A stretch of DNA of 7,417 nucleotides from Candidatus Fermentibacterota bacterium (lineage in GTDB: Bacteria > JAFGKV01): positions 1 through 7,417 of the forward strand of contig JAUXFG010000175.1 of assembly GCA_030620115.1 (NCBI GenBank), given 5' to 3'. A program made the translations under genes and the position numbers. Below are positions 1-7,370 of this stretch, one piece after another (positions within the stretch are counted from its first letter, which is position 1; every line of letters begins with the position of its first letter). The notes beneath the pieces are model-generated. The model saw nothing but the letters and a program-made list of their open reading frames with translations, searched no databases and was not told the origin of the DNA.

Positions 1-1272
1 CACGACCTCGGATAGGCAAAGACGAGCCCTCTCACCAATCCGCCGGGGAGAGAACTCTCTATTGAAGAGATCGAAACCAGCCTCTGCCAAGGACTGCCTG
101 AGCACTACATCATTCGCGAGTTTTTCAATTGCTCCGGCCAAGGCGTGATAATCACCAGGGGGAACCAACAGGCAGTTCTCGCCGTGGAGAAACCACTCCC
201 GTGCAGCAGCTGTATCACCCGTAATAACGGGCCTGCCAACGGCCAGGGCCTGAAAAACCTTGTTCGGGACTACGGCGCGAGCCTTCCTGGAGGTGCCAAA
301 AATGCCGAGACAGATGTCGGCCTCGGCGATGTACTGAGGGAGCCGTCCATAGGGCACTGCATCAACCCACCTCACGCGACTGTCCGTACCTAACTCTTGG
401 GAAAGACGGCGCACCTTGTCGTAGTCCTGCCCACGACCAACGATGGTGAATCGAATCGAATCGGGGTCCTTCAGTACGGCTGCGGCTCTGATGATCGTAT
501 CCACCCCATGCAGCGGTATCATCCATCCATAGAAAAGCACATGCACGACCCCTTTTCCTTCAGCTAGGGGTTCATGTCGAAACAGATCCGGTTCAGCCCC
601 CACTGGGATTACATCGCTGCTCTCCAGCTTCAGCCCTAAATCGTCAGCAAAAAGCCTGCCATGGGCGGCCGTGTCCACAAGCACATGATCCGCGGCTCTG
701 AAAGAGAGTCGATCCAGGAGTCGACACGAACGACCCACAAGACCTCTCGATCCTACGCGCTGCCTGTCATGAACGACTGTCTGATAAAGCGAGATGAAAG
801 GATCAAAGACCACGGGCACACGCCGTAAACGCGAAAGCAGCCTCGCCAGAAAAACATCCACATGCCCAATGTATGGCACCACCACCACATCGTGCGGGGG
901 AAGACGAAGATACGCCAATGCCAGGAGCGGCATGGCAAGTAGCCAGGCAAGAACGGGCCTCAAGTAGCCCAAAGGGTTATCGATCTGACCCCTATCTTCC
1001 ATCCGACCCCATACAGGGGCTCGACACTCGATTACCTGAAGCCCTGCAAGCTCCAAACCCTTTCGCAAAACACGAAACCGTGGTCTGTGGGCATCATACG
1101 TGCCGAAAAAAACAACCCGTAGGGCGAGCCCGCATTTCTCACCAATCCCGCGTCCGCCGCGGGACTGCAGCCCCGGATCTGACCGCGCCTGCTTCGTTCC
1201 GCTTCTTCGGACTCCTCGACGTATTACATCGAATACGCCTCCGGGGTCCTCGGTCGCAAGCCTTGCATCCAC
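1..1272 (-). CDS. GT-B fold glycosyltransferase (GT4-type), 3' end outside window, repeat-derived N-terminus
   Basis: This reading frame is open from the epimerase stop to the window edge, giving at least 424 codons from the chosen start. The domain core begins LRVVFFGTYDAHRPRFRVLR (residues 51-70), a typical first beta strand of GT4-type transferases. It continues with a middle region VVVPYIGHVDVFLAR, the second-domain signature FYGWMIPLHG (247-256), and the donor-binding region PNKVFQALAVGRPVITGD (336 onward), where Gln stands at the position often held by Glu. It probably adds a sugar from a nucleotide donor to the lipid-linked repeat unit at the cytoplasmic face. The start is uncertain. 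The codon at the expected N-terminus is CTA, and no usual start lies between it and the repeat. I chose GTG at 1272 because GGAG (1279-1282) sits 6 nt upstream; ATG at 1278 is the in-frame alternative. Residues 1 to about 49 are therefore encoded by repeat R1. Family confidence is high; start confidence is low. Confidence 0.85.
   Translation of the reverse strand, partial: MDARLATEDPGGVFDVIRRGVRRSGTKQARSDPGLQSRGGRGIGEKCGLALRVVFFGTYDAHRPRFRVLRKGLELAGLQVIECRAPVWGRMEDRGQIDNPLGYLRPVLAWLLAMPLLALAYLRLPPHDVVVVPYIGHVDVFLARLLSRLRRVPVVFDPFISLYQTVVHDRQRVGSRGLVGRSCRLLDRLSFRAADHVLVDTAAHGRLFADDLGLKLESSDVIPVGAEPDLFRHEPLAEGKGVVHVLFYGWMIPLHGVDTIIRAAAVLKDPDSIRFTIVGRGQDYDKVRRLSQELGTDSRVRWVDAVPYGRLPQYIAEADICLGIFGTSRKARAVVPNKVFQALAVGRPVITGDTAAAREWFLHGENCLLVPPGDYHALAGAIEKLANDVVLRQSLAEAGFDLFNREFSPRRIGERARLCLSEVV
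1146..1164. repeat. Stem-loop in R1 (7-bp stem) next to CTGCAG
   Basis: On the plus strand, TCCCGCG (1146-1152), a 5-nt loop, then CGCGGGA (1158-1164), a perfect 7-bp stem. CTGCAG follows at 1165-1170. The corresponding stem-loop in R2 has CTGCAG on the opposite side. Confidence 0.7.
1220..1237. repeat. Stem-loop in R1, CGTATT/AATACG
   Basis: CGTATT (1220-1225), loop ACATCG, AATACG (1232-1237): a perfect 6-bp stem with a 6-nt loop. R2 lacks it and carries a different GC-rich hairpin in the equivalent place. A similar CGTATTACA string occurs in the minus-strand hairpin at 5891-5925. Confidence 0.6.
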
Positions 1273-1278
1273 GATCAT

Positions 1279-1282
1279 CTCC
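1279..1282 (-). promoter_or_regulatory. Candidate ribosome binding site inside repeat R1 for the GT4 gene
   Basis: GGAG on the minus strand, 6 nt before the in-frame GTG at 1272. It abuts the alternative ATG at 1278 and so would serve that codon poorly. It lies inside repeat R1, so translation initiation of the glycosyltransferase would be supplied by the element. This is an inference from spacing only. Confidence 0.35.
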
Positions 1283-1317
1283 GCTGCTTCCCGACGAGAG
1301 TTGGCGGAAAATGAGGG

Positions 1318-2442
1318 CTAGTCGGTCAGGCCCCATCTCCTGAGCTCTTCCGTCGCCTGGTCTGATCTATCCAGAACGCCCTCCTGTCCTTCAACCCACT
1401 TCACAAGCTCCCCAATACCATCTTTGAGAGCGACCTTTGGCTCGTACCCCAACAGAGTCCGTGCTTTGGAGATATCCGCAATACAGTGTCTGATATCACC
1501 TTCCCTGAACTTCCCGAGGATCAGTGGATCTCCTGAGAAACCAAGATAGCGGGAGAGAAGATCCGACATGCCGAGAATCGATGTGGCCGTGCCGGTACCC
1601 ACGTTGAGGGCCTGATAATCTGCTTTTTCGCTCTCCATGGCGAGCATGTTGGCCTGGACAATATCGGAGACATGGATGAAGTCTCGCGTCTGTTCACCGT
1701 CCTCAAAAATGATGGGTGGTTTTCCATTGAGCAGACGGGCACTGAATATGGCCCCCACGCCGGTGTAGGGGTTGGAGAGCGCCTGCCGGGGACCATAGAC
1801 GTTGAAATATCGCAGGGCAACCGTAGGGATCTTGTACGCATAGCCCACCGAGAGGCACATCTCTTCATGGTCACGTTTGGTCACCGCGTAGATGGAGGTT
1901 GGATAGAGCGGTTTGTCCTCCGCAGTAGGAAGCGGGCTCGTCTCATGCCCGTCATGATCCAAAACCTCCCACCGCCGATCCTCTAATTGTGCCCTGGGCC
2001 GCAGCCTCGGGTGGATCGTGGCGCCATCCCGACACCGGTACGAACCCTCGCCGTAGATGGACATGGAGGAGGCAACGATCAGCTTCTTGGGGCGGACTTC
2101 GGGATTGCGCACGAGGTACTCGAGAAAAAACGCGGTGGCAGCGGTGTTCCCCTCTACGTAACGATGGATCTCATACATCGATTGCCCCACGCCCACCATG
2201 GCGGCTTCATGGAAGATGACCTCGACCCCAGGAAGCACCTCTCTCAGCATGGCTGGATCGTCGATACTTCCCTTGTAGAATTCCACCCCTTTATTCAGAT
2301 AGCCAGGAGGGGTATGACGATCACCGTGTACCTGGGGTTCGAGATTATCCAGAACCCTGACTGAATGCCCCTTTGCGACAAGTGCATCTACAATGTGTGA
2401 GCCGATAAACCCCGCGCCGCCGGTAACAAGAACTACTGCCAT
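1318..2442 (-). CDS. NAD-dependent sugar-nucleotide epimerase/dehydratase (UDP-glucose 4-epimerase-like)
   Basis: A 374-residue extended short-chain dehydrogenase/reductase of ordinary family length. The NAD-binding glycine motif TGGAGFIG is at residues 7-14. The catalytic triad is visible as SSMSIY (Ser125/126) and the YxxxK of YAVTK (Tyr185, Lys189). Substrate-binding motifs RYFNVYGPRQ (211-220) and TRDFIHVSDI (252-261) follow. It most likely interconverts or modifies a nucleotide sugar for the polysaccharide; the exact substrate cannot be read from sequence. Residues about 131-172 form an insertion between the catalytic Ser and Tyr (see findings). The ATG start overlaps the end of the GT2 gene by 10 bp, and an AGGAG lies about 11 nt upstream, so translational coupling is likely. 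The stop TAG is the first triplet of repeat R1. Confidence 0.93.
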   Translation of the reverse strand: MAVVLVTGGAGFIGSHIVDALVAKGHSVRVLDNLEPQVHGDRHTPPGYLNKGVEFYKGSIDDPAMLREVLPGVEVIFHEAAMVGVGQSMYEIHRYVEGNTAATAFFLEYLVRNPEVRPKKLIVASSMSIYGEGSYRCRDGATIHPRLRPRAQLEDRRWEVLDHDGHETSPLPTAEDKPLYPTSIYAVTKRDHEEMCLSVGYAYKIPTVALRYFNVYGPRQALSNPYTGVGAIFSARLLNGKPPIIFEDGEQTRDFIHVSDIVQANMLAMESEKADYQALNVGTGTATSILGMSDLLSRYLGFSGDPLILGKFREGDIRHCIADISKARTLLGYEPKVALKDGIGELVKWVEGQEGVLDRSDQATEELRRWGLTD

Positions 2443-5545: not shown

Positions 5546-5688
5546 GTCTCTTCCTCTTTGGGTAGTTCTTGATTGAGGGCTCGTTCAATAACGGCTGCTT
5601 GTTCTCGTATTCTCTCCCCGGTCCATTTTCGCCCGCTGAGCGAAAACGGCCTCTCCCAACCCGAACTTCTCACCAACTTTCGGCTGCA

Positions 5689-5709
5689 GTCCCGCGTCTG
5701 ACGCGGGAC
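5689..5709. repeat. Stem-loop in R2 (9-bp stem) next to CTGCAG
   Basis: GTCCCGCGT (5689-5697), loop CTG, ACGCGGGAC (5701-5709): a perfect 9-bp stem. CTGCAG precedes it on the plus strand (5684-5689). In R1 CTGCAG follows the equivalent stem-loop, so the module is inverted relative to the shared outer part of the element. Confidence 0.75.
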
Positions 5710-5725
5710 AGAGGATACGCCTGCG

Positions 5726-5745
5726 GGCTTCGCCACGGCGGAGCC
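5726..5745. repeat. GC-rich hairpin in the variable middle of R2
   Basis: GGCTTCGCC (5726-5734), loop AC, GGCGGAGCC (5737-5745); 8 of 9 positions pair. Flanking ACGCCTG and CAGGCTACG strings can extend the structure imperfectly. R1 has no equivalent. Confidence 0.6.
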
Positions 5746-5890
5746 AGGCTACGCCCTGACAGAGCCGGGGTCCTCAGTCGCAAGCCTCGCATTCAGAACC
5801 ATCTCGGCGGTTTCGCTTCGAAAGCCGGCGAGAAGTCCGGGCTAAGCAAATATCATCTATCCCTCAGTATCTGAGCGCCAAACTATGGCC

Positions 5891-7270: not shown

Positions 7271-7370
7271 AGATTCTTCAGTCGCTCCGCTCCCTCAGAA
7301 TGACGCGCATTCATGCATCCAACGTCAAGCACCCCTGTCATTCTGAGCGACTGCAAGAAGCGAAGAATCT
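7271..7370. repeat. Inverted pair of dispersed TCATTCTGAG / GAAGAATCT repeats
   Basis: The left arm (7271-7304) and the right arm (7337-7370) are reverse-complementary in three blocks: AGATTCTTC, AGTCGCT and CAGAATGAC. Each arm carries about nine extra bases, but in a different gap between blocks. The arms are separated by 32 bp, so a large cruciform or RNA hairpin is possible. Repeats of this general sequence are common in intergenic DNA of many environmental bacteria. Confidence 0.7.

Follow-up and report, generated by a model that had tools for sequence, protein, structure and literature searches.

N-terminal protein extensions encoded by MITEs have already been described for the RU, RPE and Correia elements. 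The repeat analyzed here, named R1, lies in front of a GT4 glycosyltransferase gene and is probably a further example.

RU-1, RU-2 and RU-3 are enterobacterial MITEs of the ERIC/YPAL type, and the N-terminal half of the Yersinia protein YP_0349 (wbbJ) is encoded by RU-2 (Delihas 2007, PMC2759123). Like R1, the RU elements are small and palindromic, contain an open frame and are incorporated in a neighbouring protein (PMC2759123). RU and R1 are separate sequence families, however, and in the case of R1 the native start position is demonstrated by orthologous operons without the repeat.

The RPEs, palindromic elements of Rickettsia (Ogata et al.), are MITE-like, about 150 bp long and open, and lie in-frame within protein genes (PMC10969869, PMC2229807), in all of which R1 resembles them. 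RPEs are situated inside genes, whereas R1 is found at a gene boundary and is the single clear gene fusion found here.

Correia or NEMIS elements of Neisseria have TIRs with TA ends, and open frames of their short form are fused to genes (PMC2229807). The R1 element shares the TA-ended TIRs and the gene-fused open frames (PMC2229807), but the host lineages differ and no sequence relation was apparent. A MITE of Coxiella extends a protein at the C-terminus (PMC5896051).

Organization of the locus

The whole stretch of 7,417 nucleotides analyzed here (the window) is a contig from a 4.1-Mb genome of 296 contigs. Its minus strand carries an exopolysaccharide operon of five genes, coding for an SLBB export protein, a Wzc-like chain-length/ATPase protein, a GT2, an NAD-dependent epimerase and a GT4 glycosyltransferase, the gene of the latter being truncated at the contig end. 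The features are:

1 to 1122, minus strand: core of the GT4-family glycosyltransferase, 374 codons, first codon CTA at 1122-1120 (Pfam Glyco_trans_1_4 / Glycos_transf_1; orthologue alignment from residue 1)
1127 to 1320, minus strand: repeat R1, a 194-bp MITE-like element between epimerase and GT4 (alignment with genome copies)
1270 to 1272, minus strand: in-frame GTG within R1, the candidate start with the best spacing, which would add 50 residues (duplex of -6.6 kcal/mol with the GGAG 6 nt upstream)
1276 to 1278, minus strand: in-frame ATG within R1, candidate start, 52-residue extension (from the sequence)
1279 to 1282, minus strand: GGAG, Shine-Dalgarno-like, within R1 (from the sequence)
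1318 to 1320, minus strand: TAG, epimerase stop codon and left terminus of R1, in the GT4 frame (same stop position in the relatives)
1318 to 2442, minus strand: NAD-dependent epimerase/dehydratase gene upstream of GT4 (Pfam Epimerase; 71-72% identical to the gene at the corresponding place in the related genomes G001 and G002)
5658 to 5844, minus strand: R2, a second element copy, flanked by the Wzc-like gene and the SLBB export gene (repeat comparison)

The left TIR of R1 is TAGCCCTCATTTTCCGCC at 1320-1303 and the right TIR is GGTGAGAAATGCGGGCT, ending at 1127. GT4 matched the Pfam profiles PF13692 (79.5 bits) and PF00534 (71.4 bits); its PDB relatives matched the C-terminal two-thirds only and did not place the first strand. 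Near the contig end an imperfect inverted repeat (7271-7304 and 7337-7370) is present, with a sequence unlike R1 and R2.

Reading frame and candidate start codons

On the minus strand the GT4 frame has no stop between the epimerase TAG (1320-1318) and the end of the contig, the stretch within R1 included. Direct reading of codon 1122-1120 agreed with an earlier note on this DNA, according to which the core LRVVFFGTYD opens with CTA and not with a usual start. Between the TAG and the core, ATG 1278 and GTG 1272 are the only usual starts in this frame; both are located in R1, as the note had proposed, and share one frame with the CTA. The next usual start downstream of the CTA is TTG 1068, the use of which would delete the first conserved strand.

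The GGAG at 1282-1279 had been regarded as well placed for GTG 1272, and indeed it lies 6 nt upstream. It directly abuts ATG 1278, which is served by a weaker GGGA-type match. GTG 1272 has the best spacing, and ATG 1278 is the stronger codon with the weaker site.

From ATG 1278 a continuous open frame runs through R1 into GT4, and the orthologues are without such an extension. The Arg/Gly-rich, repeat-encoded stretch of about 50 residues that had been predicted would be 52 residues long with initiation at the ATG and 50 residues long with initiation at the GTG; 8 of its residues are Arg and 10 are Gly. It includes LATEDPGGVFDVIR, a peptide encoded by R1 upstream of 1224, and a comparison of the 52-residue extension with NCBIfam gave no family match.

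As the distance 2442-1278 is a multiple of three, the epimerase and GT4 lie in one frame, split by the TAG alone. A single mutation in the TAG at 1318-1320 would fuse both genes.

Orthologous operons without the repeat

The earlier note had pointed to orthologous operons lacking the repeat as a source for the native start. We compared genomes G001 and G002, which belong to the same family as the genome of the window, and G003 and G042 with more distant orthologues. The gene order GT2-epimerase-GT4 in G001 and G002 was the same as in the window. Their epimerase ends at the same residue as that of the window with TAG, followed by 14 nt and a GT4 TTG at the column of the CTA. The junction of G001 reads ...GAG TAG ACGGCGGCCGACCC TTG CGG GTA GTC TTT TTC GGA. 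GT4 orthologues of the same-family genomes were 55-56% identical and aligned from residue 1; here GT4 and epimerase are separate proteins in different frames. The repeat core, searched with at most one mismatch, was found 92 times in the genome of the window and 0 times in G001 and G002.

Since these repeat-free genomes carry the same gene pair, R1 is an insertion located on the start region of GT4, and the native start codon has been lost. The assumption that the insertion displaced the original start region thus held true. Four bases (CGCC) are left between the element end and the CTA compared to the gap of 14 nt in the relatives, so that about 10 nt are missing.

In the alignments the CTA column was confirmed as the native start position, where homologues had been expected to begin with Met. 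Judged from the sequences of G001 and G002, however, the native start codon was probably TTG rather than ATG, the latter being present in G003 and G042.

Proposed origin of the GT4 start

R1 entered the TA within the epimerase stop, in the tight gap between the epimerase and GT4. As the comparison with the repeat-free relatives shows, the first G of the element itself completed the TAG and restored this stop. About 10 nt of the gap and the probable TTG start were lost or, in the case of the TTG, mutated to CTA. GT4 is maintained without its native start, so that ribosomes must initiate elsewhere. The most likely start would be GTG 1272 with its GGAG, followed by ATG 1278. Both are part of the element, 40-46 nt past the epimerase stop, and would lead to an Arg/Gly-rich extension of 50-52 residues. 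Termination of the epimerase at this distance could allow coupled re-initiation, presumably in the repeat-free operons too.

Translation of GT4 from the repeat-borne GTG or ATG is, on the sequence data, the best explanation and in our opinion a fairly likely one. We infer from this arrangement which codon is used and that the mature protein carries the extension. A strong fold was predicted for the leader which would hide GTG 1272 and counts against a start within the repeat. In this prediction, which treats the leader as isolated and without translating ribosomes, the unpaired probability was 0.0 for GTG 1272 and 0.25 for the GGAG.

The lost native start and the predicted structure over the leader would also fit a GT4 gene that is silent or poorly expressed after the insertion, that is a recent pseudogene. 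This is unlikely given the state of the gene: its 374 codons are free of stops and near-gapless compared to the orthologues, with one residue of gap relative to G001. Identities to two outgroups were 38.9% and 36.5%, compared to 32-34% for the repeat-free orthologues, and by this measure the branch bearing the insertion is not faster-evolving. At a neutral divergence of 11%, approximately the level of the left TIR, the frame would survive with a probability of about 0.04; this age estimate is rough, since many copies carry 2-4 TIR mismatches. From the intact frame and the lack of rate acceleration we argue that GT4 function, and hence its translation, continues.

Initiation at a non-standard codon nearer to the core, resulting in a shorter extension, appears similarly unlikely. 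ATT 1146, CTG 1170 and ATA 1224 are in frame, and Shine-Dalgarno-like matches were found for ATT 1146 (-5.0, spacing 6) and ATA 1224 (-9.5, spacing 12). Non-standard starts are rare and weak, however, and two ordinary start codons are present upstream.

Since the contig is metagenome-assembled, the codon at 1122 could be a true start hidden by a consensus error, one change leading to CTG and two to TTG. We consider this distinctly improbable, because such base errors are rare and because R1 is diverged from all other retrieved copies, so that coverage should be ordinary. The longest exact match between R1 and another retrieved copy was 31 nt, which together with the gene order of the relatives makes it unlikely that the junction is an assembly artefact of identical repeats.

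The right TIR (GGTGAGAAATG) also contains ATG 1135, which is out of frame. A start at this codon, from which slippage on the T7 run (GTTTTTTTC) with loss of one T would restore the GT4 frame, is highly improbable, as this run is short for slippage, the frame with seven T and the CTA encodes RVVFFG identical to the orthologues, and slippage would alter these conserved first-strand residues. Read-through of the UAG at 1320 into an epimerase-GT4 fusion, which the common frame without a further stop would permit, is hardly credible either, since in the relatives the two proteins are made separately from different frames and ordinary termination at UAG is expected.

The element family

The core of the element was found 143 times in the 4.1-Mb genome at up to 2 mismatches, compared to 3 matches of the control. 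The copies are approximately 182 bp in size and longer where small GC-rich palindromes nest inside. Most of them have the ends TAGCCCGSAYTTCTCACC ... GGTGAGAARTSCGGGCTA in common, which are terminal inverted repeats, and show TA at both termini with flanks Y...R. The base 5' of the left TA was C in 60 and T in 34 of 107 copies; 3' of the right TA, A (43) and G (36) prevailed among 95 copies. The target site is YTAR with TA ends, and the anatomy is that of a MITE: a size between 100 and 400 bp, many dispersed copies, TIRs and TA termini. R1 is best explained as a copy of this non-autonomous, MITE-like transposable element. It has kept the left TA, has lost the right-hand A and is comparatively diverged, its nearest neighbour being 81% identical against a median of 90% for the copies.

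A DDE_3 profile search for transposases (IS630/Tc1-type) gave no match in the genome of the window. Rfam contained no family matching the window or the element, the repeat core had no match in 59 other genomes searched, and the element was absent from the plasmids and viral contigs searched. The same element family was present in full length in the Acidobacteria MAG Zod_Metabat.95 (L151, L155-L159). Both ends of these copies vary together, TTTCTCACAA/TTGTGAGAAA versus TTATTCATGA/TCATGAATAA, which suggests that pairing of the ends matters. The GC-rich palindrome TCCCGCG...CGCGGGA, found at 1146-1165 and 5687-5709, is nested at varying places in the element copies, in the manner of a separate repeat.

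The left end of the element coincided exactly with the stop of a long frame (at least about 100 codons) in 19 of 107 copies, the right end in 6 of 95 (19 versus 6, p = 0.015). Against a background of 9.6% at YTAR sites outside long frames, the excess was significant for the left end (p = 0.006) but not for the right one. The element thus favours stop codons to a modest degree, with a bias in orientation.

Between the conserved core and the element end, the GT4-equivalent phase was open in 35 of the 77 full copies, while base shuffling of the copies would lead one to expect about 20; each of the three reverse frames was open in 61-66 of the 77. Upstream of the conserved core, an in-frame ATG, GTG or TTG was present in 70 of the 77. 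The start and the open frame of R1 are therefore unexceptional, and what sets R1 apart is where, and in which phase, it lies with respect to GT4. R1 departs from the consensus 11, 13 and 7 times at codon positions 1, 2 and 3, without concentration at the third position, and random substitution would keep the frame of R1 open with a probability of about 0.40. Selection on the open frame of the repeat was supported neither by the codon-position differences nor by the counts of open copies. The extension would seem to be a tag acquired by accident, derived from an inherited open frame.

That the family is adapted to operons, with oriented insertion on stop codons, restoration of the TAG and a Shine-Dalgarno site plus start and mostly open frame restarting the next gene, seems rather improbable to us. 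Among the retrieved copies several long frames enter elements, but as to a second start capture, in no other case did a Pfam domain clearly begin ahead of the first start outside the element; copy L023 (deoxyhypusine synthase) was ambiguous.

Implications

Gene callers would report a 50-residue N-terminal stretch of GT4 that is repeat DNA, which should be taken as a warning. The before/after evidence for R1 and GT4 is unusually good, since the sister operons show the prior state. The locus would be a well-documented example from nature in which a mobile repeat has assumed the translation start of a functioning gene.
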